Shown: positions 1,551 through 15,260 of the stretch, piece by piece | Layout: every line of letters begins with the position of its first letter | How positions within the stretch are numbered: the stretch's first letter is position 1 | DNA from: a virus | Virus record (IMG/VR): IMGVR_UViG_3300047994_000099 | Location: 1 to 26,594 of that record | Length of the DNA stretch: 26,594 nt | Direction: 5' to 3' (one strand) | Notes under the pieces: generated by a model | The model's input: only the letters and a program-made list of their open reading frames with translations | Database searches by the model: none | Told to the model about the DNA's origin: nothing | Translations under genes and position numbers: made by a program

Positions 1551-1578
1551 ATTCTACAGCGCCTGACATCCTTGTCAA
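1551..1578 (-). promoter_or_regulatory. Leftward sigma70-like promoter with operator palindrome
   Basis: Leftward -35 TTGACA (1578-1573), 16-nt spacer, -10 TAGAAT (1556-1551). The palindrome TGACATCCTTGTCA (1564-1577) overlaps the -35. The start codon at 1543 follows the -10 by 7 nt. Confidence 0.7.
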
Positions 1579-1592
1579 TTAGCAATTAGAGA

Positions 1593-1633
1593 AACGGGTC
1601 ACATTCCATGCAACCCGTTCCCGGGAACTACCC
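1593..1633. promoter_or_regulatory. Inverted repeat plus GTTCCCGGGAAC palindrome after the 209-aa gene
   Basis: AACGGGT (1593-1599) and ACCCGTT (1613-1619) can form a 7-bp stem just past the stop of the leftward gene at 1636, followed on that strand by TCTCTAATT, a poor but possible terminator tail. It overlaps CCGTTCCCGGGAACTACCC (1615-1633), one of six copies of a recurring palindrome. Terminator or protein-binding site cannot be separated by eye. Confidence 0.35.
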
Positions 1634-1635
1634 AA

Positions 1636-2265
1636 CTAGGCGTGCAATTGAACGCCCATGCGTTCACGGCGCGCGGCCGGCTTATCCAGCTGAGCCAGCG
1701 CGGCCTGTAGGGCCTCGATTGCCTCTTCTAGAGTCTCGCGTGCAGCCTCGGGCGCCTGCCTCTGGGCGTGGCTGATAATTGCAGCCTGTGCCCGTTCCAC
1801 GCGTGACTGAGGTTCCTCCCCATCGGTGCGGGCGGCGTTTACACTGGCGCGTAGTTCCCCCTTGCTGACCGTCATCACGTCAATGGCTCGGATATCCCCT
1901 CCCTCGCGGATCCAACTGACCAGCGTGGACTTTGCCGTGCGGGCGAATGTCGACCGGCGGTTGCGCTCGAGGGTGCGCAGCCTCTGGGCGTCCAGGGGTA
2001 GCGAGGGGTCCGCGGCAATCTCGGGCGTGGTCACCCCGCGTAGCACGGCCGCATAGAACGGGGCGTTCACGTCATCCAGTGCCTTCAGCTGGCCCCCCGC
2101 CGCTAGCCGCCTGCCCTTGACCTTGTCCCCCAGCTTCGCCTGCACGGCCGTGATGATCACGCGCAGATAGGTGGAATCGAAGCCATCTCTAACCGTGGCA
2201 TTATGGAGGCGCTCGGCAGCCAGCGATTCAATTTGCGCCTCGGTCATTACGTACAGATTTTTCAC
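1636..2265 (-). CDS. Hypothetical phage protein (209 aa), helical
   Basis: The frame opens with GTG at 2265 (MKNLYVMTEAQIESLAAERL); an ATG six codons later is an alternative. The protein is basic and mostly helical. Residues about 70-120 contain LRTLERNRRSTFARTAKSTL, rich in Arg/Lys and plausible as a nucleic-acid contact region. The C-terminal third (ETLEEAIEALQAALAQLDK) is a likely coiled coil. It is the largest soluble protein of the left cluster and has the palindrome cluster 2301-2377 directly upstream. A DNA-binding or regulatory role is possible but rests on charge and position only. Confidence 0.75.
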   Translation of the reverse strand: MKNLYVMTEAQIESLAAERLHNATVRDGFDSTYLRVIITAVQAKLGDKVKGRRLAAGGQLKALDDVNAPFYAAVLRGVTTPEIAADPSLPLDAQRLRTLERNRRSTFARTAKSTLVSWIREGGDIRAIDVMTVSKGELRASVNAARTDGEEPQSRVERAQAAIISHAQRQAPEAARETLEEAIEALQAALAQLDKPAARRERMGVQLHA

Positions 2266-2300
2266 TTTTATCTATCCTAGTAAATGGTGTGGTTAACATC

Positions 2301-2377
2301 GACGGGGGAGAGTCTGACACGCATGTCAGTCCCCGTCTGTGCGGTAGCACACAAAGATTATGTCAGACTGATCTGAC
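2301..2377. promoter_or_regulatory. Cluster of three palindromes between leftward genes
   Basis: Three inverted repeats lie end to end: GACGGGG (2301-2307) with CCCCGTC (2331-2337), enclosing the operator CTGACACGCATGTCAG (2314-2329); TGTGC-GGTA-GCACA (2338-2351); and GTCAGACTGATCTGAC (2362-2377). No convincing -10 accompanies the operator, unlike the other copies. This fills most of the 113-nt gap between the genes ending at 2379 and starting at 2265; I see no gene in it. It could be an operator array or tandem terminator hairpins. Confidence 0.55.
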
Positions 2378-2378
2378 G

Positions 2379-2573
2379 TTAGGATTTATCGGCCTTGCGC
2401 CGGTATCGCGTCGGGCCCATGTAGTTCAGCACCGTCAGCTTGTACCGCTCGGGGCGGCGCTTCGTGCTGAACTCTACGTAGCCATCCAGATCCACGCGGC
2501 CCACGAGGCACCCCACGCGGCCATCGGGTACGCGAACTACTGTCGGATTCAGCAGCTTCAGGGAGCCTTCCAT
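2379..2573 (-). CDS. Small hypothetical protein, beta-rich (64 aa)
   Basis: Starts MEGSLKLLNPTVVRVPDGRV with AAGAGG a few nt before the ATG, inside the end of the preceding gene. The sequence alternates hydrophobic and polar residues (GCLVGRVDLDGYVEFSTKRR), suggesting a small beta-barrel such as an SH3-like fold, and ends in a basic tail (GPTRYRRKADKS), which would suit nucleic-acid binding. No family is recognised with certainty. Last gene of the leftward unit that begins near 3005. Confidence 0.68.
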   Translation of the reverse strand: MEGSLKLLNPTVVRVPDGRVGCLVGRVDLDGYVEFSTKRRPERYKLTVLNYMGPTRYRRKADKS

Positions 2574-2743
2574 GCGCCTCTTGCTACCAATTCAGCTAAC
2601 GTTTCAGGGGGCTCGACGTAATCCTTACGGACCTGGCCGCAGAACGCACACACGCCCTGTATCCAGGCCGGATACTGCTGTGTACGTAGGTGCTTTTTGC
2701 AGTCCTTCTGTCGCTGCAGGATTACGGGATCAATGTCCGGCAT
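2558..2743 (-). CDS. Small CxxC protein (61 aa)
   Basis: I use the ATG at 2743 (MPDIDPVILQRQKDCKKHLR); an in-frame ATG at 2761 would add six residues and enlarge the overlap with the upstream gene, and neither has a strong ribosome site. C15xxxH19 and the later CAFC make a possible zinc site (C-x3-H then C-x2-C). It overlaps both neighbours by about 15 nt, indicating coupled translation. Function unknown. Confidence 0.62.
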   Translation of the reverse strand: MPDIDPVILQRQKDCKKHLRTQQYPAWIQGVCAFCGQVRKDYVEPPETLAELVARGAWKAP

Positions 2744-3005
2744 AGGGCGCGCCAGCTGCATGTTTTGTACGAAACTGCAGCATAAACTGATGCTCTTTCA
2801 AGCGCTCAAGGGGGACGTACAGCCCCATGTGGTAGAGACAACGCAGGCACGTAACTTCCGTGTCGTCATTCGTGAATCTCGTAGCTCGGCTGGGGTGCGT
2901 GTCGCATACGGCGCCGTCGATGGCCCACATGTGAACCTTCAAACATCGCTTCGTGCGATTTTGCAGCCGGTAAACCCCCAATGGATCGCCAATGCTCGTT
3001 GCCAC
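2730..3005 (-). CDS. Putative zinc-binding small protein (91 aa), probably leaderless start
   Basis: A TTG-start reading would begin inside the promoter, so it is rejected. GTG at 3005 lies 7 nt after a TAGAAT -10 hexamer, the geometry seen at other starts here. An ATG at 2930 (MWAIDGAVCDTHPSRATRFT) with a GAAGG site is the alternative and could give a short form of 66 aa. The core KVHMWAIDGAVCDT followed by EVTCLRCL looks like a small Cys/His metal-binding fold common in phage early proteins. First gene of the unit ending at 2379. Confidence 0.62.
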   Translation of the reverse strand: MATSIGDPLGVYRLQNRTKRCLKVHMWAIDGAVCDTHPSRATRFTNDDTEVTCLRCLYHMGLYVPLERLKEHQFMLQFRTKHAAGAPYAGH

Positions 3006-3012
3006 GTTGTAA

Positions 3013-3041
3013 ATTCTACTGACGTGCGTGTCAGTGGTCAA
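3013..3041 (-). promoter_or_regulatory. Leftward promoter with operator filling the spacer
   Basis: Leftward -35 TTGACC (3041-3036), 17-nt spacer, -10 TAGAAT (3018-3013). The spacer is almost entirely the palindrome ACTGACACGCACGTCAGT on that strand (3018-3035), so a bound protein would block RNA polymerase. GTG at 3005 follows the -10 by 7 nt. Confidence 0.68.
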
Positions 3042-3204
3042 CAGCCACCCAAACCAGAATCATCAGGCAGATGGGGGTAACCAGAACGCACACCCCACAA
3101 ATGATAATGGCCGCCCCGACGAGCAGGCGGCCACCGATCCATATCAATTTTTCAGCGATTTTAAGTCGCGCTAAACGCTTGCTCACCGAACTGAATAGTC
3201 TCAT
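3031..3204 (-). CDS. Small membrane protein (57 aa)
   Basis: I start at the ATG at 3204 (MRLFSSVSKRLARLKIAEKL); the longer frame begins with an unsupported TTG. A basic amphipathic N-terminus precedes a long hydrophobic stretch from about residue 24 to 55, with GGRLLVGAAIIICGVCVLV and LMILVWVAV, enough for one or two membrane spans. Its 5' part overlaps, in another frame, a decayed copy of the end of the neighbouring secreted protein. Its last codons overlap the promoter at 3013-3041. Function unknown. Confidence 0.58.
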   Translation of the reverse strand: MRLFSSVSKRLARLKIAEKLIWIGGRLLVGAAIIICGVCVLVTPICLMILVWVAVDH

Positions 3205-3298
3205 TCGTCGAACCCGCCAGGACAATCGACCACTTGTACAGGCCGTTGTTCGTCCCCAGGGACAACATCGAGCGGAACGGAATCTTCAGCCAGACCCA
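3161..3298 (-). pseudogene. Duplicated C-terminal module of the secreted collagen-like protein (remnant)
   Basis: Directly after the stop of the 3300-4145 gene, in the +1 frame, there is a 45-codon stretch without a usable start that begins WVWLKIPFRSM and ends IQFGEQAFSAT then stop. It aligns with the last 44 residues of that gene (WNWLKVPFRQI to MQVGAQVFSAQ) with one gap: shared W-WLK-PFR, YK, ET-Q-G-Q and FSA. The DNA is well diverged, so the duplication or exchange is old. It may be a silent alternative ending or leftover of a recombination event. The conserved frame argues against chance. Confidence 0.7.
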
Positions 3299-3299
3299 C

Positions 3300-4145
3300 T
3301 CATTGCGCCGAAAACACCTGCGCACCAACCTGCATAGTCGTCTCGCCGGTCATGGCGAGCGTGTACTTGTACCATGCCGTGTTCGGGTGGATGCCGCCGT
3401 TGATCTGGCGAAACGGTACCTTGAGCCAGTTCCAACCCTTGACCTGTGGCGCGGTTAGGTAGCTGTTGACGATGGCCAGTCCGCTGTTGATGAAAAACGG
3501 CTGGTCGCCGGGTGCTTCGCCGCCCAAGTACCATGTGTCATTACCCGTGCCCGAGTAGACGCGCAGCCACAGGTAATTGTACGGCGTGACGTCCAGCGTA
3601 TCGCCGGGAAAGCGGGGCTGAAATCCGCCCGATCCGCCCATGCCCGCCAGTCCGACAACCTTCGTCTCAAGCGGGAACAGCGGATCAACCGCAGCGGGCG
3701 CCGCGCCGTAGTTCGCCGTGACACCAGAGTAATTATAATCGCCGGGCGACTGCGTCACGCCGTCGTAGTAAAACATGAACTGCGTGCCACTAGGGCCTGT
3801 GCCGTTCGGAAACGGCGTACCGCCGGAGCCGCCAGCCGGCGGCGTGGTGCCCCCACCCCCGGGCGGCGTCGTGACCGGCTGACCGATCGCAGCGGCCACG
3901 GCAGCAATGAATGCCTGATTGGTGGCGAGACTGGCAGCCACGCTCGAGGCCGACGGAGAAGCCCCCGCCGGGCCTGCAACGCCCTGGGGACCAGCCGGAC
4001 CGGTCGCACCTACCGGACCCTGAGGGCCAGGCACAGGCGCCGGAATCGTGATCGAGGCAGTACCCGTAATCGGGACCGTCTGCACAGAAGCGGCCAGCGC
4101 GGCCGTGGACAGCAGCGCAGCTGAGAGAACAAACAATTTACGCAT
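3300..4145 (-). CDS. Secreted collagen-like protein with C-terminal beta domain (281 aa)
   Basis: A TAGGAG ribosome site precedes the ATG. Residues 1-19 are a Sec signal peptide (MRKLFVLSAALLSTAALA, cleavage near ALA-A). Residues about 37-62 are collagen-like Gly-X-Y triplets (GPQGPVGATGPAGPQGVAGP), then Ala/Ser helix, a Gly/Pro/Thr linker (100-125) and an aromatic, beta-rich domain of about 150 residues containing DNTWYLGGEAP-like strands and ending GAQVFSAQ. Collagen repeats are common in phage fibres, but a signal peptide is not, so the product may be exported by the infected or lysogenic host rather than built into virions. A partial second copy of its last module follows. Function unproven. 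Confidence 0.8.
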   Translation of the reverse strand: MRKLFVLSAALLSTAALAASVQTVPITGTASITIPAPVPGPQGPVGATGPAGPQGVAGPAGASPSASSVAASLATNQAFIAAVAAAIGQPVTTPPGGGGTTPPAGGSGGTPFPNGTGPSGTQFMFYYDGVTQSPGDYNYSGVTANYGAAPAAVDPLFPLETKVVGLAGMGGSGGFQPRFPGDTLDVTPYNYLWLRVYSGTGNDTWYLGGEAPGDQPFFINSGLAIVNSYLTAPQVKGWNWLKVPFRQINGGIHPNTAWYKYTLAMTGETTMQVGAQVFSAQ

Positions 4146-4183
4146 TGCAAACTCCTAGTGTTGTGGACCGGCGCAGCATAGCC

Positions 4184-4273
4184 CTAATAATCGTCGCCGT
4201 CTTCACTACCCTCGCGCGATTCGTCATCGTACTGATAGTGGTCACAGTCTCGAGCTAGGGTGAGCGGGCGCAT
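4184..4273 (-). CDS. Possible tiny acidic peptide (29 aa)
   Basis: MRPLTLARDCDHYQYDDESR then EGSEDGDDY, very acidic at the end. No ordinary ribosome site, but TAAAAT lies 6 nt before the ATG inside a small hairpin loop (TGGGGG/CCCCCA), similar to the leaderless starts elsewhere here. It would be the only content of the 162-nt gap between the genes at 4145 and 4308. The call depends on that start signal and is weak. Confidence 0.35.
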   Translation of the reverse strand: MRPLTLARDCDHYQYDDESREGSEDGDDY

Positions 4274-4307
4274 GGGGGCATTTTACTACCCCCACCCCCG
4301 GGCACCA

Positions 4308-4592
4308 TTAAGACTGCCTGTCGAGGAACGCATCGAGGCAGGCCGTCTGTACCCACTTGGCGAACTCCCCCCGCTTCTCAAAACTAAGAGTACCCGGAAT
4401 CTTAACGTGTATTTTCAGCACATCTTCGTTGACCTGCTTTTTTATGGCGCGCCACACGGGATCAATACACGCGATACACGCCCCCGTAGACACATAGCGC
4501 TCAGTTTCGTGCCCGTGGACGCATGGGCGGCCCGTGAAATAACGCTTGCGCCCCTGGAGTCGCGCCTCTTCTCTTTCAATAAAGGTATACAT
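4308..4592 (-). CDS. Small zinc-binding (CxxGH...CxxC) protein (94 aa)
   Basis: Starts MYTFIEREEARLQGRKRYFT with an AGGAG ribosome site, part of which lies in the inverted-repeat arm upstream. Residues about 14-42 carry YFTGRPCVHGHETERYV followed by ACIAC, the short metal-binding module often found fused to HNH endonucleases or standing alone in phages. No HNH catalytic residues follow, so it is probably a free zinc module with a helical C-terminus (WRAIKKQVNEDVLKIHVKIP). It is the first leftward gene beyond the AT-rich divergent region and probably opens that unit. Confidence 0.75.
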   Translation of the reverse strand: MYTFIEREEARLQGRKRYFTGRPCVHGHETERYVSTGACIACIDPVWRAIKKQVNEDVLKIHVKIPGTLSFEKRGEFAKWVQTACLDAFLDRQS

Positions 4593-4601
4593 TTCAAGCT
4601 C

Positions 4602-4797
4602 CTAAGAATATGCATGTACTTTTGTATTGTGCCCCAAGATTCTAACAGTTTAAGGTTATTGAGACAACGAAGATTAAACACTCTTTACATTTAACACTAT
4701 TATATTTTATATATCGAATATTATTTAAGAATGCGCGAAAGAATCTTAATACATGCAGAATCTGTAGCACAATACAAAAGTACATGCATATTCTTAG
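4602..4797. repeat. AT-rich island flanked by perfect 31-bp inverted repeats
   Basis: Positions 4602-4632 and 4767-4797 are exact reverse complements over 31 bp. The 134-bp core (4633-4766) is strikingly A+T-rich in a GC-rich window and holds further AAGATTCT/AGAATCTT repeats and TATATTTTATATAT, with -10-like elements on both strands. It lies between leftward and rightward genes, so transcripts leaving either side through the arms would carry the same 31-nt sequence. Candidates: replication origin, divergent promoter region, or a miniature transposable element (a TA occurs just inside both ends). No gene is seen. Confidence 0.8.
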
Positions 4798-4810
4798 TTT
4801 TCACGATTTA

Positions 4811-4839
4811 TTGTCGTTTTACTTTTGGTGCGCTATTCT
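4811..4839 (+). promoter_or_regulatory. Promoter for the terminase genes
   Basis: -35 TTGTCG (4811-4816), 17-nt spacer, -10 TATTCT (4834-4839), then 7 nt to GTG at 4847. No operator palindrome is seen here. Confidence 0.55.
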
Positions 4840-4846
4840 GTGGATT

Positions 4847-5599
4847 GTGGACGCACTGCCCAACACCACGGCGGCGCCCAGCGTGCCGGCCCCACTCGCG
4901 CCCGCCCTGACACGGCGACAGGAAAACTACGCCCGCTGCGTGGCGCACGGTATGAGCTATGCCGAGGCGTTCAGGCAGGCCGGGCTGGTGGCGTCGACCA
5001 TTGGCAGCCAGGGCGCGCAAATCTCAGAACTGAACCGCAACGCCAAAGTGGTGGCGCGCATCAATCACCTGAGGGCGCTGGCCGATACCGCAACTGAATC
5101 CACGCTCGCCGAACGCATGGCATGGCTGCGCCTGATTATCAGCGCAGACCCCCGGGAGCTAACCCGCATCGTGACCGTGCCCTGTGGCGCGTGCTGGTCG
5201 CCGCTGCTGATCGCTGAGCATTGGCTGGCGCACTTCCGCGAGGAAACGTTTCACCCCGACGAACCCCGGCCCGATGCGCCTGAGCCGCACAAGCCGCGCC
5301 GCGACTGTGACAGCTGTCAGGGCGTAGGGATTCAACGGGTGATTGTGACGCCCACGGATGAGCTATCGCCCTCGGGCCGCGCGCTGTTCATGGGCGCCAG
5401 CCAGGACGAAAAAGGGGTGATCAAGGTCCAGATGCAGGACCAGCAGAAGGCCGCCGACATGCTGAACAAAATGCAGTCGGCTTATGTGCAGCGCACGATG
5501 AATCTGAACGTCAATGCCAGCGTGCATGCGGCGAAGGACGCTGCGCCGGCTGACGTTGAGCGACTGTTCGAGGCGTTCGGTGAGCGACCAGCTAGCTAA
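4847..5599 (+). CDS. terS: Terminase small subunit (250 aa) with zinc-ribbon-like Cys pairs
   Basis: Recognises phage DNA for packaging and partners the large subunit encoded next. I start at GTG 4847 (VDALPNTTAAPSVPAPLAPA): the longer frame from 4784 begins in the inverted repeat, lacks a ribosome site and would add an unlikely hydrophobic leader. Residues 22-60 (LTRRQENYARCVAHGMSYAE, then AFRQAG) form the helix-turn-helix typical of small terminases. Cys113/Cys116 (CGAC) and Cys154/Cys157 (CDSC) make a probable zinc ribbon, absent from many small terminases. The -10 lies 7 nt before GTG, suggesting a leaderless mRNA. The end overlaps TerL by 20 nt. Confidence 0.85.
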   Translation: MDALPNTTAAPSVPAPLAPALTRRQENYARCVAHGMSYAEAFRQAGLVASTIGSQGAQISELNRNAKVVARINHLRALADTATESTLAERMAWLRLIISADPRELTRIVTVPCGACWSPLLIAEHWLAHFREETFHPDEPRPDAPEPHKPRRDCDSCQGVGIQRVIVTPTDELSPSGRALFMGASQDEKGVIKVQMQDQQKAADMLNKMQSAYVQRTMNLNVNASVHAAKDAAPADVERLFEAFGERPAS

Positions 5600-7403
5600 C
5601 GCGGCCTACGCAGCCATGAAGCGCCCGCCTAGCGCCCGGGAACTATTCGAGCGTTGCATGCGTGAACGCACGGCGCCCACGGGCGACGCACTGGCCTATG
5701 GTATGCGTCGCCTCGAGTTACGTGACGTGTACGGCAGTCAGGCGGCCAGCATGCAGGCCCGTGAGGATTGCCTCAGGTGGCTGCGCACCACGGACGGCAA
5801 AGCTAGCAGCGCTGAGCGTGTGGCGTGGGTCAAGCGCTATTACTCGCGCGACGCCCAGACCCTGGCAGATTTCATCAGCGACTGGGGCTACACCATTGAC
5901 CCTCGAGCCATCGCTGAGAGTCGCAATCCCGTCATGGCGTTCGAGCTATGGCCCAGGCAGCGCGAACTGATCGCCCACATGATGGACTGCTGGCTATCGT
6001 CGACGCCCGGCATTGTGGTCAAGGCGCGTGACGTCGGCGCCTCGTGGGTCAGCATGGCCCTACTGGCTAGCCTGTGCATCTACCGCCAGGGATTCGCCGC
6101 GGGCGTGGGGTCCGCCACCGAAATCAAAGTAGATCGTTCAGGCGACCCGGACACGCTGTTCTACAAAGCGCGCTCATTCCTCGAGCATCTACCCCCGGAG
6201 TTTGCCGGCGGCTACGATCAGGACCGCACGTCGGCCTACATGCGCCTGACATTCCCCCTCACGGGATCATCGATCACGGGCGAGGCGGGCGATCAGATGG
6301 GACGAGGCGGCCGTAAATCAATCTACATCGTTGACGAGTTCGCGTTCGTTGAGCGGCCCAAAATCATCGACCGTAACCTGTCGGCCAATACCAAGTGCCG
6401 CATTGACGTGTCGACGGTTAACGGCATGGCTAACTCGTTTTTCACGCGCGCCCACAATCCAGCCATTAAGCGCTTTGATTTCACGTGGAAAGATGACCCC
6501 CGGAAGAACTTCCCGGGCAGCACGTGGGCCGAAAAAATGCAGGCCGAACTGGATGAAACGACCTGGCGCCAGGAATACATGGCCGATTTCCGGGCCACAA
6601 TCGAGGGCGCTGTTATCCCGATCGAATGGGCCGAGGCGTGCATCGATATCGACAAGTTCTTAGGGGTCGATCTACGCACGGGCGCCAAGCGCGCGGCGCT
6701 GGACGTTGCCGACCGCGGTATCGACCTGAACGCATTCGCGATCACTCACGGGCGTGTGCTGTATCACCTTGAGCAGTGGTCAGGCAAGGGCAGCGATACG
6801 GGTTACAGCGTGCAGCGAGCCATGACCCGTTGCGAGGAACACGGCCTGTATCAGTTCGATTACGACGCGGATGGCTTGGGCGGCGCGGCTGTGCACTCCG
6901 ACACGCGGTTGATTAACGAGGCGCGCGGCCACGCACAGCAGGCATCGTTGCGCACCCCAGGCCTAAAACCCGAACAGTATTTTGCGGGCCGTGCGATAGG
7001 CGCTATCCCCTACCGCGGGTCAGAATCTGTCGTGATGCCCGAACGGATAGTTCCCGGGACACAGCGTAAAGCGATTGATCTGTTCGCGAACCGCAAGGCC
7101 CAGACGTGGTATGAAGGGCGCTTGGCATGCTGGAACGCATGGAAAGCCCGTAAGGGGCAGCCTTACGACCGTGAGCGCATCCTGTGCATTGACGGTAAAA
7201 CCCCACTGCGCGATTTGCTCGTTCAGCAGCTGTCGCAGGCTGTGAACAAGCAGACGCTGACGGGGAAAATCCAGATTGACAAGGATCAAGATGACGTCGG
7301 TTCGCCTGACTTGGCGGACGCTACGCTGATGAGCATTGCCCCGCGCAAGTCAAGCATGAATAATATGGGCGCGCTGTTGACAGCAGTGTCAGGCGGGGCG
7401 TAG
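5580..7403 (+). CDS. terL: Terminase large subunit (607 aa)
   Basis: ATP-driven DNA-packaging motor and headful/cos nuclease docking at the portal. GTG 5580 (VSDQLANAAYAAMKRPPSAR) has GAGG 6 nt upstream; the longer frame upstream overlaps TerS coding without a ribosome site. Walker A-like KARDVGAS at residues 148-155, Walker B IVDEFAF with D252/E253. RNase H-fold nuclease acidic residues are in ALDVADRG (D375), YDADG (D429/D431) and SPDLADA (D577/D580). Length is normal for the family. An operator-promoter at 7377 lies across the last codons. Two copies of the GATAGTTCCCGGG motif (5635, 7045) lie inside the gene. Confidence 0.95.
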   Translation: MSDQLANAAYAAMKRPPSARELFERCMRERTAPTGDALAYGMRRLELRDVYGSQAASMQAREDCLRWLRTTDGKASSAERVAWVKRYYSRDAQTLADFISDWGYTIDPRAIAESRNPVMAFELWPRQRELIAHMMDCWLSSTPGIVVKARDVGASWVSMALLASLCIYRQGFAAGVGSATEIKVDRSGDPDTLFYKARSFLEHLPPEFAGGYDQDRTSAYMRLTFPLTGSSITGEAGDQMGRGGRKSIYIVDEFAFVERPKIIDRNLSANTKCRIDVSTVNGMANSFFTRAHNPAIKRFDFTWKDDPRKNFPGSTWAEKMQAELDETTWRQEYMADFRATIEGAVIPIEWAEACIDIDKFLGVDLRTGAKRAALDVADRGIDLNAFAITHGRVLYHLEQWSGKGSDTGYSVQRAMTRCEEHGLYQFDYDADGLGGAAVHSDTRLINEARGHAQQASLRTPGLKPEQYFAGRAIGAIPYRGSESVVMPERIVPGTQRKAIDLFANRKAQTWYEGRLACWNAWKARKGQPYDRERILCIDGKTPLRDLLVQQLSQAVNKQTLTGKIQIDKDQDDVGSPDLADATLMSIAPRKSSMNNMGALLTAVSGGA

Positions 7404-7429: not shown

Positions 7430-7693
7430 ATGATTGTCTCGCTTGCCCTGATATCCCTGATGTTAACCGCTTTAACTTGGAAGGTACTTGCCATGTCTGC
7501 TGCATTCGACGCCTTGAACAACCAGATTGCCAGTCTCGCCAATGACGTAACGGCCCTTGAAACGGCCGTCGCGAATATCCAGACGCCCCCGCCCGCCGAT
7601 GATCTGTCTGTACCGGCTGCTGCCGTTACCGCGATCGCCGCGCGTGTTGAGGCCCTGACGGCGAAGCTGATCCCGGCCGCACCGACGGCCTGA
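7430..7693 (+). CDS. Small coiled-coil protein, possible membrane anchor (87 aa)
   Basis: ATG 7430 has GGGAGAG upstream and gives a hydrophobic N-terminus (MIVSLALISLMLTALTWKVL). An internal ATG at 7493 with AAGG upstream (MSAAFDALNNQIASLANDVT) gives a soluble 66-aa form, so two products are possible. The body is a heptad-like coiled coil followed by a Pro-rich linker (PPPADD) and a second Ala/Val helix. Similar short coiled-coil proteins occur near phage tail and lysis genes. Function not established. Confidence 0.65.
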   Translation: MIVSLALISLMLTALTWKVLAMSAAFDALNNQIASLANDVTALETAVANIQTPPPADDLSVPAAAVTAIAARVEALTAKLIPAAPTA

Positions 7694-8236: not shown

Positions 8237-8638
8237 ATGCGTAAACTGCTGCTATTGCTACTGTTCCCCCTGCTGGCCGTTGCCCAGTACGGCGTTCCTC
8301 CGCAGGGCAACGGCCAGGCCGGCACTAGTTTCTGGGCTGCGGGCCTCACATCGCAGCTGTCCGCCACGTCTACTAGTTCCGTAGTGTTTCTGTCGGTTGC
8401 GACCAGCAGCCAGGCGCCCAGCGTTCAGGTTTACAACAGTGGTACGGCCGTCGCGTTCATCGTGTGCGGCCCGTCAACCGTGGTAGCCCACACGGGCACA
8501 GCGGGCGCGTTCACAGCGGACTACCCCGTCGCGCCGGGTAGCGTAGTGGTCTACACGCCTCAGGCCGGTAGCAGCACGTGCGCTGCGATTACCTCAAGCG
8601 CGGCCACGATCTACTTCACACCGGGTGCCGGGCTGTGA
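8237..8638 (+). CDS. Secreted beta-rich protein (133 aa)
   Basis: GAGGG precedes the ATG. Residues 1-16 are a Sec signal peptide (MRKLLLLLLFPLLAVA-Q). The mature part is rich in Ser, Thr, Ala, Val and Gly with alternating strands (SSVVFLSVATSSQAPSVQVY), and has two Cys that could form a disulfide. It overlaps the next secreted protein by GTGA, so the two are co-translated and may act together outside the cytoplasm. No family is recognised; a small all-beta binding or decoration-type fold is likely. Confidence 0.72.
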   Translation: MRKLLLLLLFPLLAVAQYGVPPQGNGQAGTSFWAAGLTSQLSATSTSSVVFLSVATSSQAPSVQVYNSGTAVAFIVCGPSTVVAHTGTAGAFTADYPVAPGSVVVYTPQAGSSTCAAITSSAATIYFTPGAGL

Positions 8639-9936
8639 TTCGCAAGCTCGCCGCCCTGCTCGCCGCGCTGGCCCTGTCGGTCAGCGTATCGGCATCCATC
8701 AAGAATCAGCCCCCGGCTACTGGCGGCGGGGGTGGCGGCACCGTCACGGCCGTTACGGGGACTGCCCCGATCGTATCCAGCGGCGGGACCGCGCCGGCCA
8801 TTTCGTGCCCGACCTGCGGCGTAGGGTCGGTCACTGGCGTTATCGGATCGGCGCCGATTTCCTCGGACGGCAATACGACCACGCCCAAGTTGTCGCTGAC
8901 GGCCAACGGGGTGGAGAATTCGTACTTGGCCCAAGCGCCCACGAACACGATCAAGTGTAACAACACGGGTTCAAGCGCTACACCTATTGACTGCACCGTA
9001 GCCCAAGCGCAAGCCCTGCTCAGCATCCCGGGCGTTGTAGACGTTCAGATTTTCACCAGTTCCGGCACGTGGACGAAGCCCACGGGCAGCCCGAAGCTTA
9101 CTCACGTGGTGGCGATTGGTGGCGGTGGCGCGGGTGGGGGTGGCCTGTGGTTCACGGCCCTCGGTACGGCCGGGTCTGGCGGCGCTGGCGGGGGCGGTGG
9201 CGGCTGCATGATTGTTGATATGCCCACCACGTCGCTAAACGCTACCGAAACGGTCACGATTGGTAACGGTGGTACGGCGGGGACGGCGGGGGCCTCAAGT
9301 GGCGCAACTGCCGGCACGGGCGGCACGGGTGCCGCGACTACGTTCGGCACTACCGCTTACGTAATTGCCGGTGGTGGCGGCGGCGGAATTGGCGGTACTT
9401 CGGGCGCTGCGTCGGGCGGCGCAGGCGGCGGCGGGTCTGGCGGGTCTGGTTCGGCTGGCAGCGGCGTTAATGGCGGTGCGGGCGCGGCGGGAGGAGGCAA
9501 CGGCGGCACGTCGGGCGCGGTAGGCTCAAATTCTCCGGGATTGGGCGGCGCGGGCGGCGGCTCGGGCGCCAGTGGCGCGGCTGGCGCGGGCGGCGGCAAC
9601 TCGAATTGCGGTGGCGGCGGTGGCGGCGCGGGCGGCGGCCTGTCGACCACAACGGCGTTTGCCGGCGGGTCGGGCGGCAAGGCTTCATATATCACTACCA
9701 GTGCGGCGGGTGGCACGGTACCGGCGGGCGCGGGCGCGTCGGCTACGGCCCCCGTGGCGTTTGTCGGGGCAGCGGGATCGGGCGGTGGCGGCGCGAATAC
9801 GACCGCAGCGGCCGCAGCAGGGACCGCGGGAACCCAAGCTGGCGCGGGCGGCGGCGGGGCTGGTGCGGGCATCGGTAGCGGCGTTGCTGGTGGCGCAGGG
9901 GGTAAGGGTCTAATCGTCGTAGAGACCTTTTTTTAG
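8635..9936 (+). CDS. Secreted glycine-rich fibre-like protein (433 aa), N-terminal half of a split fibre/esterase
   Basis: GTG 8635 overlaps the previous stop; the frame upstream is not used. Signal peptide MIRKLAALLAALALSVSVSA, then repeated GTVTAVTGTAPIVSSGGTAP-type strands (25-105) typical of phage fibre proteins, then VQIFTSSGTWTKPTG, the usual opening of a glycine-rich fibre domain. About 250 residues of poly-Gly/Ala/Ser follow, closing with GLIVVETFF. That ending normally completes the Gly-rich domain. The stop lies at a T7 run, after which a SGNH hydrolase continues in the +1 frame. A signal peptide on such a protein is unusual. Likely a surface-sugar-binding product. Confidence 0.78.
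   Translation: MIRKLAALLAALALSVSVSASIKNQPPATGGGGGGTVTAVTGTAPIVSSGGTAPAISCPTCGVGSVTGVIGSAPISSDGNTTTPKLSLTANGVENSYLAQAPTNTIKCNNTGSSATPIDCTVAQAQALLSIPGVVDVQIFTSSGTWTKPTGSPKLTHVVAIGGGGAGGGGLWFTALGTAGSGGAGGGGGGCMIVDMPTTSLNATETVTIGNGGTAGTAGASSGATAGTGGTGAATTFGTTAYVIAGGGGGGIGGTSGAASGGAGGGGSGGSGSAGSGVNGGAGAAGGGNGGTSGAVGSNSPGLGGAGGGSGASGAAGAGGGNSNCGGGGGGAGGGLSTTTAFAGGSGGKASYITTSAAGGTVPAGAGASATAPVAFVGAAGSGGGGANTTAAAAAGTAGTQAGAGGGGAGAGIGSGVAGGAGGKGLIVVETFF
9928..9934 (+). other. T7 homopolymer at a frame junction
   Basis: The Gly-rich gene reads TTT TTT TAG. Skipping one T gives TTT TTT AGC and joins the frame encoding EIGNSLTVDG and the SGNH hydrolase. No start codon other than CTG exists in that frame before the catalytic Ser codon (9968-9970). 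The tract could be a programmed frameshift, a phase-variable switch, a mutation or a sequencing error. Confidence 0.65.
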
Positions 9937-11009: not shown

Positions 11010-11581
11010 TTCGACACCAGCTTAATCCGCATGGCATCAACTTCCTGCTGTGTGTACAGCTTCGCAGCCGGCGGGGCAACCGCAACGGGCCGCGCGTGGC
11101 CGGCCGTCAGAATCATCAGGCACTCTTTGCCCAGAACGGCGGCGACGTCCTTAACGCTGCACATCAGCCGATCGCCCGCCTCCCACTGCTGGACGGCGTA
11201 GAACTGCTGGGCAAGTCCGACCTTCCAGCACTCTTTATCCTTGAACGTGAAGCCTACGGAGGCGCCCGCCGGGGTTGTCTGGATCCCAAGGCCCTCAGCG
11301 TAGCGGCACGGCGCCGTAGTCATCTGGAAGCCCGCTACGGCCGTATTGACCGGGATGCGCGGATAGCGAATGTTGTCGCCCACTACGTCGACCGTGGTGG
11401 CGCCCACAGCGGACGCCGAGGCGTCAGACTTGCTGCCGGCTACAGCGGCCTGCTGCTGGCCCTGCTGGACTGTGGGGCTGTTGTCGCCCGTGTATTTGCA
11501 CGTGCCCGTGGTGTTGCTGACGCACGGGTTCGCGAAGGCAGATAGAGGCGCGAGGGCCGCCAAAGCAATCAGATATTTCAT
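11006..11581 (-). CDS. Secreted hypothetical protein (191 aa)
   Basis: A TAGGAGTT ribosome site and TAATG overlap with the preceding gene fix the start. Signal peptide MKYLIALAALAPLSAFA-NP. The mature region has PCVSNTTGTCKYTGDN, a Gln/Ala/Ser stretch (VQQGQQQAAVAGSKSDASAS), and a C-terminal part with spaced Cys (APCRYAEG, KECWKVG, MCSVKD, KECLMI), which could form disulfides in the periplasm. Similar exported proteins occur in some phages of GC-rich hosts, but I cannot name the function. Envelope-located, possibly affecting superinfection or lysis; this is inference only. Confidence 0.75.
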   Translation of the reverse strand: MKYLIALAALAPLSAFANPCVSNTTGTCKYTGDNSPTVQQGQQQAAVAGSKSDASASAVGATTVDVVGDNIRYPRIPVNTAVAGFQMTTAPCRYAEGLGIQTTPAGASVGFTFKDKECWKVGLAQQFYAVQQWEAGDRLMCSVKDVAAVLGKECLMILTAGHARPVAVAPPAAKLYTQQEVDAMRIKLVSK

Positions 11582-11760
11582 TACTTAACTCCTAGTGTGG
11601 TGAAATCAGGCATGCGCCGAATGGCCGACCATGACGTATCGGGCAGTTCGCCCTTGCGCGCCTCGGCGTCAAACCGCGCATTATCGAGCGCTATGACGTG
11701 TTCCGCGTGGCGGGCGAACCATTCGGGGGTACCAAACTTGATGTGTGTTGCGTAGTTCAT
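11581..11760 (-). CDS. Small hypothetical protein (59 aa), probably leaderless
   Basis: Reads MNYATHIKFGTPEWFARHAE, then HVIALDNARFDAEARKGELP and DTSWSAIRRMPDFTTLGVK. ATG 11760 follows a TATTCT -10 by 7 nt, with -35 CTGACA inside an operator palindrome, so translation probably starts at the mRNA 5' end. Its stop and the next start overlap (TAATG), and the ribosome site of the secreted protein lies in its last codons. No family recognised; compact helical protein of phage accessory type. Confidence 0.65.
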   Translation of the reverse strand: MNYATHIKFGTPEWFARHAEHVIALDNARFDAEARKGELPDTSWSAIRRMPDFTTLGVK

Positions 11761-11767
11761 GGTTGAG

Positions 11768-11796
11768 AGAATACAGGCAACTGACGCCCGTGTCAG
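11768..11796 (-). promoter_or_regulatory. Leftward promoter with operator
   Basis: Leftward -35 CTGACA (11796-11791), 17-nt spacer, -10 TATTCT (11773-11768). TGACGCCCGTGTCA (11782-11795) overlaps the -35. The start codon at 11760 is 7 nt past the -10. A further TGACGTGAGT half-like element lies just upstream. Confidence 0.65.
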
Positions 11797-11804: not shown

Positions 11805-11969
11805 TCACAGTTTTAGCTCCGCGCGGGCGAGCCAGACGGCCCAGAGTGTGGGTATCAGCGTGGCTGGTTCACGGTGCAACGTTTTCTCAGCCATCAGCCA
11901 GCGCTCGAACGCTTTGCGCTCAGATCTGAGATTCACGAGGCGCTGTGTCTGTTCGAGGGGGTCGCTCAT
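11805..11969 (-). CDS. Small hypothetical protein (54 aa)
   Basis: I start at the ATG at 11969 (MSDPLEQTQRLVNLRSERKA), which overlaps the preceding membrane-protein stop as ATGA; the longer frame reads through that gene. It is helical and charged, then hydrophobic near the end (LIPTLWAVWLARAELKL). It is the last gene of the leftward unit starting at 12878, and its stop is just upstream of the next promoter. Function unknown. Confidence 0.62.
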   Translation of the reverse strand: MSDPLEQTQRLVNLRSERKAFERWLMAEKTLHREPATLIPTLWAVWLARAELKL

Positions 11970-12088
11970 GCTGCCGCCCACTGGCTGAGCCAGTACAGCA
12001 GGATAAAGCCAGACGCTACGCACATCAGCAGCCAGAGGCCGAACAGCGCCACGGACGCCCAGGCCACGATTTTAACGAGAATATACAT
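11966..12088 (-). CDS. Small membrane protein (40 aa)
   Basis: MYILVKIVAWASVALFGLWL followed by LMCVASGFILLYWLSQWAAA: almost entirely hydrophobic with a single Lys, long enough for one long or two short membrane spans. GAGGGG lies 7 nt before the ATG, and the end overlaps the next gene (ATGA). Membrane peptides like this often affect envelope function or lysis timing in phages, but nothing identifies it as a holin. Confidence 0.6.
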   Translation of the reverse strand: MYILVKIVAWASVALFGLWLLMCVASGFILLYWLSQWAAA

Positions 12089-12266
12089 CGGGAAACCCCT
12101 CAGATTGTTTGCGAGCGTGATAGTCGGTCTCGGTCGGTTTGTGGGCTGCGTCCCGGTAAACGACGGTATCTAGCTCGACGTGCTGGAATTTTTGACCCCC
12201 GTGCAGCATGCGCGCCTCTAGCAGCCGGTACTGAAGGTCAGCGGCCGACATGGGGACGGCGTTCAT
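12072..12266 (-). CDS. Small hypothetical protein (64 aa)
   Basis: Starts MNAVPMSAADLQYRLLEARM with AAAGGTG upstream and an ATGA overlap with the coiled-coil gene. The C-terminal half has ELDTVVYRDAAHKPTETDYH and a Lys/Arg-rich stretch. It overlaps the start of the next gene by 17 nt. No recognisable family. Part of a six-gene leftward unit with overlapping ends. Confidence 0.65.
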   Translation of the reverse strand: MNAVPMSAADLQYRLLEARMLHGGQKFQHVELDTVVYRDAAHKPTETDYHARKQSEGFPDVYSR

Positions 12267-12496
12267 TTCGACACCTTTACCAGCGCTGAGTTAACGCGGT
12301 TAATCATGCCCTGCAGATCGCTTTTCGCAGCGGTCAGCTGCTGGCGGGCATCGTCGCGCTGTTCGCGGTACAGGTCCCCCAGTAAACGGGACATTCTGCA
12401 CTCGAGCCGCGTATCTTTTAGCTGGGCCTTGAGGGCGTCGCGTTCGGCGATCACGAGGGCGAGAACTTCACACTGTTGTTTGGCTATGGTGTTCAT
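12263..12496 (-). CDS. Coiled-coil protein (77 aa)
   Basis: Starts MNTIAKQQCEVLALVIAERD with AGGATC before the ATG and an ATGA overlap with the gene upstream. Heptad-like spacing of Leu/Ala/Met runs through most of the length (RDALKAQLKDTRLECRMSRL then REQRDDARQQLTAAKSDLQG), so it probably forms a dimeric coiled coil. It has no signal peptide or membrane segment. Could be a partner or chaperone-like protein; no known family. Confidence 0.7.
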   Translation of the reverse strand: MNTIAKQQCEVLALVIAERDALKAQLKDTRLECRMSRLLGDLYREQRDDARQQLTAAKSDLQGMINRVNSALVKVSK

Positions 12497-12693
12497 GTTT
12501 GATCCTGAAAGTTAGGGTTTCCGTAGGTTGCCAAGGGCCGCTGTGAAACGACGAACGAGCGGCGCTTGCTGCGCACGTAGACCGTTTTCGTTTCGGAATC
12601 GTTGCGCACCAGCACTTGGGCACCGTAGCACTTCACGGTGCGGAATTGTCGCGGAGGAATCTCAATCACTGCCTCTGTTTTTCGGTTGCTCAC
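12493..12693 (-). CDS. Small beta-rich hypothetical protein (66 aa)
   Basis: GTG 12693 overlaps the previous stop as GTGA; the longer ATG frame at 12723 is read through that gene and is less likely. VSNRKTEAVIEIPPRQFRTV begins it, then CYGAQVLVRNDSETKTVYVR, alternating hydrophobic and polar residues, and a basic RSKRRSF turn, suggesting a small beta-sheet protein that could touch nucleic acid. No family recognised. Confidence 0.63.
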   Translation of the reverse strand: MSNRKTEAVIEIPPRQFRTVKCYGAQVLVRNDSETKTVYVRSKRRSFVVSQRPLATYGNPNFQDQT

Positions 12694-12878
12694 GTGTGGG
12701 CAACCTCGCGTGCTTCGCGGCACGCCGGGCAGCCATACACGCGGCCGGTACTGTGATGCCCTTTAGCGTGGCTGTCGCGGAGTTGAGCGTCGATACGCTT
12801 CTGGCGTAGGGCCTGAACCCGTTCGATTTTGATAGGCACGTTCAGCCCTTCCACGAGAATACTGGCTTGCTGTTTCAT
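12690..12878 (-). CDS. Small Cys/His protein (62 aa)
   Basis: Starts MKQQASILVEGLNVPIKIER and carries DAQLRDSHAKGHHSTGRVYG followed by CPACREAREVAH, a likely zinc site using His and the CPAC pair. First gene of the leftward unit 11805-12878. The transcript probably starts near 12912, leaving a short leader with a weak GGA site. The short out-of-frame ORF beginning at 12887 overlaps it and looks spurious. Function unknown. Confidence 0.65.
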   Translation of the reverse strand: MKQQASILVEGLNVPIKIERVQALRQKRIDAQLRDSHAKGHHSTGRVYGCPACREAREVAHT

Positions 12879-12918
12879 GTGTAGTCATTCCGTTTTCGTT
12901 TCGTGTTCCGACGGTGCT

Positions 12919-12947
12919 ACTATCTCCCAAACTGACACGGGCGTCAA
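12919..12947 (-). promoter_or_regulatory. Leftward promoter with operator
   Basis: Leftward -35 TTGACG (12947-12942), 17-nt spacer, -10 GATAGT (12924-12919). TGACACGGGCGTCA (12933-12946) covers the -35. Drives the gene starting at 12878. Unlike some others, this promoter leaves a leader of about 34 nt. Confidence 0.6.
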
Positions 12948-12965
12948 TTGCTATTTGTGTTTAGT

Positions 12966-12985
12966 TTTGTGACGTGCGTCACAAA
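12966..12985. repeat. 20-bp palindrome in the divergent region
   Basis: TTTGTGACGTGCGTCACAAA has 9-bp arms around a 2-bp centre. It shares TGACG/CGTCA halves with the operators but with only 2 bp between them, and lies midway between the leftward and rightward promoters. Probably a protein-binding site. Confidence 0.55.
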
Positions 12986-12988
12986 CAT

Positions 12989-13004
12989 GATAGTTCCCGG
13001 GAAT
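12989..13004. repeat. GATAGTTCCCGGGAA palindrome copy
   Basis: GATAGTTCCCGGGAAT, a near-perfect copy of the palindrome repeated at 1615, 5635, 7045, 18139 and 22157. It directly abuts the -35 of the rightward promoter at 13004. Confidence 0.55.
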
Positions 13005-13032
13005 TGACACGCGTGTCAGTTCGTCCGATACT
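13004..13032 (+). promoter_or_regulatory. Rightward promoter with perfect operator palindrome
   Basis: -35 TTGACA (13004-13009), 17-nt spacer, -10 GATACT (13027-13032). TGACACGCGTGTCA (13005-13018) is perfectly symmetric and is the best match to the operator consensus. It faces the structural block; the first gene is at 13075. Confidence 0.7.
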
Positions 13033-13074
13033 GCACGCACTGGAAACGAATTCACCCCTCTTAGGAGATTCCCC

Positions 13075-13299
13075 ATGACCCGCCTCTCAGTCTCTGACGC
13101 CATCATCTCTGCCCGGGCCCACGTGTCGAACGGTTGCCGCATGGAATCCAGCGCGCGGCTTTGTCTGGCTGACGCGGTTGCCCTGTTCGATAAGGGCGAC
13201 CACGAGGCCGCCGGCCAGCGCGCCGTTAAGTCTCTGGCTTACTCGGTCGGTATTCTGCACCCTGACTACCAGCGTGCCGTCAAGGCTATCGGGGCCTGA
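13075..13299 (+). CDS. Small hypothetical protein (74 aa) opening the structural unit
   Basis: Starts MTRLSVSDAIISARAHVSNG after TTAGGAGAT, with a leader of about 36 nt from the operator-promoter. Mostly helical and Ala-rich (SSARLCLADAVALFDKGDHE), with two Cys and no catalytic motif. It precedes the portal gene. Its sequence does not reveal whether it is structural or regulatory. Confidence 0.68.
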   Translation: MTRLSVSDAIISARAHVSNGCRMESSARLCLADAVALFDKGDHEAAGQRAVKSLAYSVGILHPDYQRAVKAIGA

Positions 13300-13300
13300 A

Positions 13301-13337
13301 TCGACAGACGGCGGCGGCCCGGGGTAAACTCCCGGGC
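13301..13337 (+). promoter_or_regulatory. Promoter and hairpin touching the portal start codon
   Basis: TCGACA (13301-13306), 18 nt, TAAACT (13325-13330), then 7 nt to ATG 13338. GCCCGGG (13317-13323) and CCCGGGC (13331-13337) form a perfect 7-bp stem whose 7-nt loop holds the -10. No Shine-Dalgarno sequence is available, supporting a leaderless start. Confidence 0.5.
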
Positions 13338-15137
13338 ATGACCGCCCGCACACCACGCAAGCCCCCTAAAGCCCCGTCCTGGGCCAAAGAACTGCTACGC
13401 GCCGCCCAGGCGCTGCCGTCCGTCCAGACCGGCTACGATCACCCCCAGCGGCCCGACAGGCCCGCCCAGGACGCCTACCCCTTCCCTGAACTGCCGCCGG
13501 GCGTGCTGCCCGGGAAAACGGGAGCGCTGGCGATGGACAAGGTTTGCACGGGCGAAGTGCGCCGGGAAACGATCGCCATGGACGGCGGGTTTGCGCCCAC
13601 GTGGGGGTTCGGCGGCGCCGGGTTTGCCGGCGGGTTCTGGTTCCCGGGCTACCCGTACCTAGCGGAACTTACGCAGATTTCCGAGTACCGTCAGCCCTGC
13701 GAAATCATCTCAACCGAGATGACGCGCAAATGGTTCGAACTGCAGTCCAAGGGCGCCAGCAACCCGGACGAGCAGGACGAAGACGATAAGCAGGCCGCCG
13801 ACCTGGCCCTACCCGACCCTGCAGCCGGCGCCGACAAGCCCGACGACGAAGAGGAAACCGACGAAAACGCGGACCCCGTGAACGCGCGTACCGACGAGAA
13901 AAACGCCAAAGATGAGAAGATTTCCAAGATCATGGCGCGCCTCGAGGAACTTAAAGTTCGGGACTGTTTTCGCCGGGCGGCCCTGCAGGACTGTTTCTTC
14001 GGTCGGTCACAGATCTACATCAACATCAACGACGCGGACGACGGCGAGCGCCAGTTGCCGATTGAACTGACCCCCGAGTCAATCCCCAAGGGGTCGCTCA
14101 AATCGATCCAGACGGTAGAGCCGTACTGGACAACGCCCTATAGCTGGAATGCCAGCTACCCCGAACGGAAGGATTTCTACAAGCCCGTGTCGTGGTATTT
14201 CATGGGTCGGAAAACTCACGCTACGCGCGTACTAACGTTCATAGGCCGCGAGGTTCCCGACCTACTGAAACCCGCCTACAACTTCGGCGGCATGTCGCTG
14301 ATACAGTTGGGCGAACTGTCGGTCAATATGTGGCTACGCACGCGCAAGGCCGTGAATGACCTGATCAACAATTTCAGTATCCCCGTCCTGTCGACGAACC
14401 TACAGGCCACGCTGCAGGACGCGGGCGAAGTGGGCGGCGGCCTGATGGCCCGCATTCAAGCGTTCACGCTGCTGCGCAATAACCAGTCGGTCGCCGCTAT
14501 CCAAATGGGCGAAGAGGAACTGAAGTTCGCAGAAGCGACCCTCGCATCGCTCGACAAACTGCAGGCGCAGTCACAGGAACATCTGGCGGCCGTGTGGGGA
14601 ATCCCGCTGGTCAAGCTGACCGGTATCACCCCGTCGGGCCTGAACGCCTCAAGCGAGGGTGAGATACAGGTATGGTATGACCGCATTAGCGCCATGCAGC
14701 AACAGCTGTTTGAACCGAACCTCACGATTCTGCTAAAGATTGTGCAGCTGGATTTGTTCGGCGAGATTGATGACGATCTGACAATTCATTGGGTTTCCCT
14801 AGACGAACCGACCGCGAAGGAACTGTCCGAGATTCGCAAGTCCGACGCGGACGCGGGCGTGGGGTACATCAACGCGGGCGTTATTTCTCCCGAAGAGGAA
14901 CGAGAACGCTTGCAGAATGACCCGCTTTCGGGGTATGAGAATCTGACCGGCCCGGCGCCGGAACCCATGCCGGACCCCGGGATGGAGATGCAGTTAGGGC
15001 ACGAAGCGGACCAGGCGGACCAGGCGCGACAGCATGAGGCTGACCAGGCAGATAAATCGCGCGAACACGAAACGGGTAAAGCGGTACTTGCGGCTGCCGC
15101 CAAGCCAAAACCCGCGCCCCCGGGCGCGAAGAAGTAG
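13338..15137 (+). CDS. Portal protein, DUF1073/phage_portal_3-like (599 aa)
   Basis: Forms the dodecameric ring at the capsid vertex through which DNA enters and to which the tail binds. Sequence landmarks: GFWFPGYPYLAELTQISEYR and EIISTEMTRKWFEL (about residues 95-135), a long acidic disordered insert (about 138-190, EQDEDDKQAADLALPDP), VLTFIGREVPDL, SLIQLGELSVNMWLRTRKAV (about 315-335), and HLAAVWGIPLVKLTGITPSG (about 415-435) as in this portal family. The C-terminus has HEADQADQ repeats, then a basic Pro/Ala tail. Length fits the family. A hairpin replaces a ribosome site before ATG. Confidence 0.9.
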   Translation: MTARTPRKPPKAPSWAKELLRAAQALPSVQTGYDHPQRPDRPAQDAYPFPELPPGVLPGKTGALAMDKVCTGEVRRETIAMDGGFAPTWGFGGAGFAGGFWFPGYPYLAELTQISEYRQPCEIISTEMTRKWFELQSKGASNPDEQDEDDKQAADLALPDPAAGADKPDDEEETDENADPVNARTDEKNAKDEKISKIMARLEELKVRDCFRRAALQDCFFGRSQIYININDADDGERQLPIELTPESIPKGSLKSIQTVEPYWTTPYSWNASYPERKDFYKPVSWYFMGRKTHATRVLTFIGREVPDLLKPAYNFGGMSLIQLGELSVNMWLRTRKAVNDLINNFSIPVLSTNLQATLQDAGEVGGGLMARIQAFTLLRNNQSVAAIQMGEEELKFAEATLASLDKLQAQSQEHLAAVWGIPLVKLTGITPSGLNASSEGEIQVWYDRISAMQQQLFEPNLTILLKIVQLDLFGEIDDDLTIHWVSLDEPTAKELSEIRKSDADAGVGYINAGVISPEEERERLQNDPLSGYENLTGPAPEPMPDPGMEMQLGHEADQADQARQHEADQADKSREHETGKAVLAAAAKPKPAPPGAKK

Positions 15138-15141
15138 TTTC

Positions 15142-15234
15142 ATGCTGGGGTGGCTTATCGCGTTTTTTCTGTTCGGCGTCATGGCCGGCGTTTGCCTGAC
15201 GGTAGCGTGGGCGTGGTCTAAGACTAACACTTGA
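15142..15234 (+). CDS. Tiny membrane peptide (30 aa)
   Basis: MLGWLIAFFLFGVMAGVCLT then VAWAWSKTNT: one clear membrane span with a short polar tail. The ATG is 4 nt after the portal stop with a weak GAAG upstream. The stop codon lies inside the -35 of the next promoter. Role unknown; its location between portal and the next genes is curious for a membrane peptide. Confidence 0.5.
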   Translation: MLGWLIAFFLFGVMAGVCLTVAWAWSKTNT

Positions 15235-15260
15235 CACGATTGTCAGAGACTGCCTACACT
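15231..15260 (+). promoter_or_regulatory. Rightward promoter with operator after the portal gene
   Basis: -35 TTGACA (15231-15236), 18-nt spacer, -10 TACACT (15255-15260). TGACACGATTGTCA (15232-15245) is the operator palindrome. Transcription would begin near 15267, before the gene at 15293. Confidence 0.6.

Follow-up and report, generated by a model that had tools for sequence, protein, structure and literature searches.

Introduction

The closest described counterparts of the element studied here are the stoperators of cluster A mycobacteriophages such as L5 and Bxb1, asymmetric elements of 13 bp that favor one orientation and to which a repressor binds as a monomer (PMC6550527, PMC9283540). 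Here, we analyze a viral DNA of 26,594 nucleotides, positions 1 to 26,594 of IMG/VR record IMGVR_UViG_3300047994_000099 (G000; hereafter, the window), in which a palindrome of the form TGAC-N6-GTCA recurs at promoters. With nine copies in the window and up to 44 in a relative, presumably serving a single binder, this palindrome resembles stoperators in its dispersal over many sites, early promoters included, in a motif that varies along with the repressor (here, a candidate) and, in the clade of the window, in the presence of intragenic copies. Unlike stoperators, it is a 14-bp palindrome that lies mostly on sigma70 core promoters and has a TetR-like protein as its candidate regulator.

With the TetR family and tetO, the system shares a TetR_N helix-turn-helix (HTH), a palindromic operator over the core promoter and probable autoregulation, but the phage protein is mostly only 75-130 residues long, lacks the usual ligand-binding domain and would serve many sites rather than one or two. 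CtrA sites provide another case in which several promoters of a phage carry the same palindromic motif for a regulator, although CtrA is host-encoded and its motif is TTAA-N7-TTAA instead of TGAC-N6-GTCA (PMC9437464). A lambda-type switch has few operators at one divergent switch, together with cI/cro and integrase. The sites described here extend across some 14 kb of the window, and no cI or integrase gene is present among the genes identified in this fragmentary record, for which part of the open reading frames (ORFs) was scanned.

Genes resembling tetR were noted in phages phiPLPE, CP-T1 and 138 and proposed to be co-opted bacterial regulators (Comeau et al. 2012; PMC3391216). According to the same source, CP-T1 is temperate in behavior without known lysogeny genes; a text search of that article gave no mention of promoter, palindrome or TGAC. 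The gp14 proteins of CP-T1 and 138 belong to the same family as the candidate regulator described below. A search of the open literature, including TetR operators of Jedunavirus, JD001 and KpV79, revealed no report of the operator or its regulon within the searchable papers.

Results

We put at roughly 0.7 the probability that TGAC-N6-GTCA serves as operator for a short, phage-encoded and autoregulated repressor of the TetR type that binds at the -35 element or in the spacer of most promoters of the phage. All eight palindromes of the original prediction (at 1564, 2315, 3020, 7378, 11782, 12933, 13005 and 15232) were recovered at exactly these coordinates. Their spacer, which had been given as four to six bases, turned out to be fixed: the 5-mers are always separated by N4, and the form TGAC-N6-GTCA holds in 8/8. 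The proposed consensus TGACACNNGTGTCA is perfect at 13005 only, the other seven sites carrying one or two mismatches, and a G follows six of the eight, in line with the claim that it usually does. Scanning for this 14-mer, as had been suggested, gave a divided outcome. The loose version, with three mismatches allowed, occurs only weakly above chance (15 versus 9.1 expected) and was discarded as a poor test, while exact TGAC-N6-GTCA is found nine times against about 0.55 expected (expected counts were derived from half-site counts, the half-sites being assumed independent) and ranks first among all combinations of 4-mer half-sites with spacers of 0-15 (P 8e-9). At spacers other than six, the TGAC/GTCA pair has 0-3 copies in the window. 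Among the intergenic palindromes of the window TGAC-N6-GTCA also ranks first, with seven copies versus 0.13 expected.

Seven of the eight sites lie at sigma70-like promoters, as originally claimed; six provide the -35 element and one fills the spacer, while the site at 2315 has no such promoter. In a promoter scan, 7/8 sites fall within the top 0.1-2.1% of window scores. The -35 part of this score overlaps the motif and is not independent of it; the -10 boxes, however, are located outside the motif, so that the -10 part constitutes independent support for the promoters. An ORF is found downstream of each of the seven. At three of them (1564, 3020 and 11782, with starts at 1543, 3005 and 11760 on the minus strand), the start codon follows the -10 box at exactly the same distance (Table 1), a geometry that suggests leaderless mRNAs. 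In a set of 22 genomes, intergenic regions hold 201 of the 324 sites, and most of the 143 that could be oriented lie about 20-60 nucleotides (nt) from a start codon. The distance from the TGAC -35 to a downstream TANNNT -10 peaks at 17 bp (28/143 oriented sites, compared with a background of 0-4 at most distant offsets), and a second class of -10 boxes lies immediately 3' of the site. Two-way promoters on one palindrome are not in excess (2 versus 7.4 by chance). A spacer activator of the MerR type was considered and ruled out, as the spacers measure 16-18 bp rather than 19-20 bp. Two outcomes had been named that would speak against an operator, namely sites not enriched at promoters and -35 elements devoid of a symmetric right half. 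The opposite was found in both respects: the sites are enriched at promoters in the window and in many relatives, and the GTCA half is kept at fixed N6 independently of the -35 element.

The element is shared by portal-protein relatives among viral contigs, with inner bases that depend on the clade (e.g. TGACTTATCTGTCA, TGACGAGGTCGTCA and TGACGCTGCGGTCA), and a site just 3' of the portal gene, as at 15232, recurs in many of them. More complete relatives contain 9-44 sites per genome. Among the near-complete ones, G004 has 31 (1.75 expected), G005 16 (1.6), G009 14 (0.95), G012 20 (1.3) and G015 23 (1.5); G016, a close relative by the protein encoded at 1636-2265, has 22 (0.98), and the highest count is that of G024, 44 versus 2.4 expected (P 2e-39). 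In most of G024, G004, G016, G015, G012 and the window, an unbiased scan ranked TGAC-N6-GTCA first among palindromes. Cultured phages carry it as well: SBP (13 copies) and KpV79 (14) of the Klebsiella Jedunavirus group, PEAT2 (17), Acinetobacter phage LAPP1 (16), Edwardsiella phage PEi21 (13), Vibrio phages CP-T1 (9) and 138 (8), MR14 (7) and Scuro (5). A single copy is present in phiPLPE. In Shewanella phage SppYZU01 (L082), TGAC and GTCA tetranucleotides are nearly absent genome-wide (expected pairs 0.03), a scarcity that perhaps reflects restriction avoidance, yet the palindrome is formed by two of the few pairs that exist.

The original prediction led one to look for an HTH regulator gene whose own promoter region carries the site; such a gene is present in relatives and missing from the 26.6-kb record. 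Since G000 is a fragment, probably about half of a tailed-phage genome of roughly 50 kb (relatives measure 44-54 kb), the gene probably lies outside it. We infer that the regulator is a TetR_N-like protein (PHROG 8723) whose gene lies between those for helicase and primase in the replication module of these relatives (in G016, at L154:11168-11461 on the minus strand). Pfam TetR_N (PF00440) is matched above the cut-off by the G003 member (E 9.5e-8) and below it by the G004 member (0.003), and the annotation 'TetR family' is found in SBP, KpV79, Scuro, SppYZU01, B2 and CP-T1. An AlphaFold model of the protein (predicted local distance difference test, pLDDT, 91) has TetR-family structures as its top PDB matches, for example TetR at 1.4 A over 59 columns. 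The protein comprises about 75-165 residues, most members having 75-130 and those of Scuro and SppYZU01 an extra N-terminal part; the usual C-terminal ligand-binding/dimerisation domain of TetR (about 120-150 residues) is missing, and a short helical tail follows the HTH. Scans with a single TetR-like protein yielded few loci; matches to a hidden Markov model of the family were obtained in all near-complete operator-rich genomes. Eleven genomes (SBP, KpV79, LAPP1, PEAT2, PEi21, Scuro, MR14, G003, G005, G018 and G019) have a site 35-109 nt 5' of the tetR-like gene, and autoregulation is probable from this arrangement. A related 60-kb contig, G023, encodes a homologue of the 1636-2265 protein, has no TetR-like match and contains one site versus 1.1 expected. 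Likewise, the portal relatives G014, Amjad_SA and Aeromonas 4_D05 have neither a TetR-like gene nor a site excess.

Divergence of the operator was then correlated with divergence of phage proteins by Mantel and partial Mantel tests, later with near-duplicates removed and seven control proteins included; the operator follows the TetR HTH rather than other phage genes (partial Mantel P 3e-4). Operator divergence follows that of the TetR HTH (r 0.52; partial correlation given the helicase 0.47, P 2e-4), compared with a partial correlation of -0.02 for the helicase given TetR. Across the sets with seven control phage proteins, r for the HTH ranges from 0.43 to 0.83 and the partial correlation from 0.38 to 0.76 (P <= 7e-4), while none of the seven controls adds a significant correlation with the operator (P 0.09-0.93). 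The part of the protein behind the HTH correlates more weakly with the operator in five sets (0.20-0.31). Both lines of comparison, the genomes that lack gene and sites (G023 and the absence cases) and the covariation of HTH and operator, favor the TetR-like protein as candidate binder at the level of sequence. As the HTH surface varies in step with the operator, one small phage protein probably gates the entire virus.

Deep intragenic sites outnumber expectation in G024 (L151; 22 versus 1.3), G004 (L018; 14 versus 1.0) and G016 (L154; 9 versus 0.5); they are at chance level in Jedunavirus and other cultured phages. By analogy, those in the clade of the window may act as stoperator-like roadblocks; the copy at 14068 is either chance or stoperator-like. 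A second palindrome accompanies the operators of this clade. GTGA-N6-TCAC, which resembles a CRP site, occurs within 70 bp of the operator in 21/54 cases versus 2.8 expected (noted in G004, G005, G007, G009, G012, G013, G018 and G024), compared with at most 3 versus 1.2 expected for eight control palindromes. Its distance to the operator is constant in some genomes, at -22 three times in G018 and at 15 four times in G024. The sequence arrangement suggests that these CRP-like sites could provide host input.

Discussion

The placement of the palindrome on the -35 element or in the -35/-10 spacer of most recognizable promoters, its dispersal and its conservation across a broad set of phages are observed directly in the genomes. 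In the mechanism that we favor, a dimer of the TetR-like protein would bind the palindrome with one recognition helix per TGAC half and would block host sigma70 RNA polymerase at the -35 and spacer of promoters that drive early, replication and structural genes. It would likewise repress the promoter of the operon that encodes it, yielding a self-limiting, phage-wide repressor circuit, to which the clade of the window would add intragenic sites as roadblocks and CRP-like sites as host input.

Several points weigh against this interpretation. While the dispersal and the promoter placement of the originally predicted repressor regulon are supported, repression rather than activation is a step that we infer from the position of the sites and the protein family. 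The replication module and regulator genes of the relatives are absent from the 26.6-kb record, and gene calls in the relatives were made with a simple home-made caller. Simple promoter occlusion does not account for the intragenic sites of some genomes, and the C-terminal part of the TetR-like protein also correlates with the operator in the portal- and capsid-controlled subsets (0.56 and 0.76). Furthermore, the presence-absence link between tetR-like gene and operator is weak when taken alone (Fisher P 0.04), because the TetR-like proteins of some phages seem to use other operators. Thirteen of 32 near-complete TetR-carrying genomes miss P < 1e-3 for TGAC-N6-GTCA; two of them clearly use a variant, GACCG-N2-CGGTC in G013 and CCGACGAACTCGTC in G007. 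A search for second operators in TetR-carrying phages that lack TGAC sites gave a clear repeat in SFCi1 only and left several without an operator. In that Shewanella phage (L085/W01), which shows no TGAC excess, three identical intergenic copies of AGTGTTACGTAACTAT are found at 24418, 37637 and 38253, and this sequence may be the operator of SFCi1's own TetR-like protein.

A more far-reaching and tentative reading, to which we give well under an even chance, is that the circuit silences the whole genome, in the manner of pseudolysogeny or lytic deferment. It would have a TetR HTH protein devoid of a ligand domain acting at 10-44 sites and nearly all promoters, with intragenic roadblocks in the clade of the window and CRP-type host input at fixed spacing.

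Rather doubtful is the idea that the TetR-like protein binds the sites but acts chiefly as an activator, or changes from one role to the other, weak -10 promoters needing it and timing rather than silencing being what it sets. Activation and repression are both known for some proteins of the TetR fold, such as LuxR/SmcR. The -10 boxes are indeed often poor (TAGGGT, GATACT, GATAGT), and LuxR-DNA structures of both kinds are among the PDB matches of the model. However, a dimer bound to a site that overlies the -35 and spacer would be expected to keep sigma off, and the -35 elements are near-consensus TTGACA/G, unlike those of activator-dependent promoters.

We regard it as improbable that the binder is instead the 209-residue protein of gene 1636-2265 (cluster 30), whose own promoter region holds a site. 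Relatives of this protein are encoded at 24 viral loci, and the operator was found upstream in 7/7 homologues of a first set and then in 20/24; the gene, moreover, is present in the window. Yet the protein has no family match, no known DNA-binding family was found for it, and its model (all-helical, pLDDT 90) has no confident PDB match. It is also unmatched in named phages, several of which carry the operator, and G023 has the gene without a TetR-like match or an operator excess. The protein is accordingly disfavored as binder; its gene is likely a member of the regulon. Another site-bearing family, a Pro-rich protein (cluster 23) encoded divergently from the helicase gene and with a site upstream in 9/10 cases, was set aside as a target by its sequence rather than a regulator.

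Equally improbable in our estimate is that the sites bind a transcription factor of the host, which the phage would exploit. Sites for a host regulator scattered over phage promoters have a precedent in CtrA and the phages of Alphaproteobacteria, but the identical motif is found in phages that infect Klebsiella, Acinetobacter, Edwardsiella, Vibrio, Pectobacterium and Pseudomonas, and its inner bases differ between phage clades, tracking the HTH of the phage TetR-like protein. That the palindromes are mere sigma70 -35 boxes of accidental symmetry, or chance, is next to impossible: TTGACA does have TGAC as its core, and a -35 is provided by six of the eight window sites, but the GTCA half recurs at N6 only, a spacing-specific enrichment that refutes the idea, many sites read TGACG or TGACC, others lie deep in genes, and unbiased scans select the same palindrome in many different phages.

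The short TetR-type repressor preferred here provides a predicted operator, regulon and mechanism for the phage 'TetR family transcriptional regulator', which is carried, unstudied, by Klebsiella Jedunavirus phages studied for therapy and by many others. The existence of a repressor circuit spanning the whole phage, in myophages that seem virulent, would thereby become testable. It is also a candidate answer to the temperate behavior of CP-T1, which silencing could account for, if true. Finally, the phages supply a family of natural TetR-type HTH/operator pairs that is useful for specificity studies.

Genome context

The IMG/VR record comprises exactly 26,594 bases and is classed as linear, and the window is therefore the entire record. 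Its identified genes encode terminase, portal, exonuclease-type, head morphogenesis, protease, capsid and other structural proteins, and there are two small-gene blocks besides the structural genes; gene identification covered part of the ORFs. A nucleotide search of 50,697 named phage records gave no match to G000, and a prophage search of bacterial genomes with the portal protein as query retrieved none. Coordinates are collected in Table 1.

Table 1. Palindromic sites and selected genes of the window.
Feature	Position	Strand	Context
Operator TGACAAGGATGTCA (minus strand)	1564..1577	-	Left half is -35 of TTGACA-16-TAGAAT; ATG of ORF 1385-1543 (-) 7 nt past -10
Cluster 30 protein, 209 residues, all-helical	1636..2265	-	Operator upstream in nearly all relatives
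Operator TGACATGCGTGTCA	2315..2328	-	Upstream of gene 1636-2265 (-); no core promoter on site
Operator TGACACGCACGTCA	3020..3033	-	Fills spacer of TTGACC-17-TAGAAT; GTG of ORF 2730-3005 (-) 7 nt past -10
Terminase large subunit gene	5514..7403	+	PHROG 2
Operator TGACAGCAGTGTCA	7378..7391	+	Within final codons of terminase large subunit gene; provides -35 of TTGACA-18-TAGGGT, promoter of gene 7430-7693
Operator TGACACGGGCGTCA	11782..11795	-	CTGACA-17-TATTCT; ATG of ORF 11581-11760 (-) 7 nt past -10
Operator TGACGCCCGTGTCA	12933..12946	-	TTGACG-17-GATAGT, for ORF 12690-12878 (-); half of divergent pair
CRP-like palindrome TGTGACGTGCGTCACA (TGTGAN6TCACA)	12968..12983		Exact midpoint (36 bp) of operators 12933 and 13005; roughly -63 of both predicted starts
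Operator TGACACGCGTGTCA (perfect)	13005..13018	+	TTGACA-17-GATACT, for gene 13075-13299 and portal gene behind it
Portal protein gene	13338..15137	+	Anchor for finding relatives
Ninth TGAC-N6-GTCA TGACCCCCGAGTCA	14068..14081		Deep in portal gene; inner bases off consensus
Operator TGACACGATTGTCA	15232..15245	+	Between portal and next gene; TTGACA-18-TACACT, for gene 15293-15577

Directly 5' of the terminase small subunit gene lies a perfect 31-nt inverted repeat (4602-4632 / 4767-4797) with a 134-nt AT-rich spacer, which could be a divergent promoter, an origin or a packaging signal. The ORF at 8578-9936, predicted to encode 452 residues, is extremely rich in Gly and Ala (GGC-type repeats) and adjoins other probable fibre-like ORFs.

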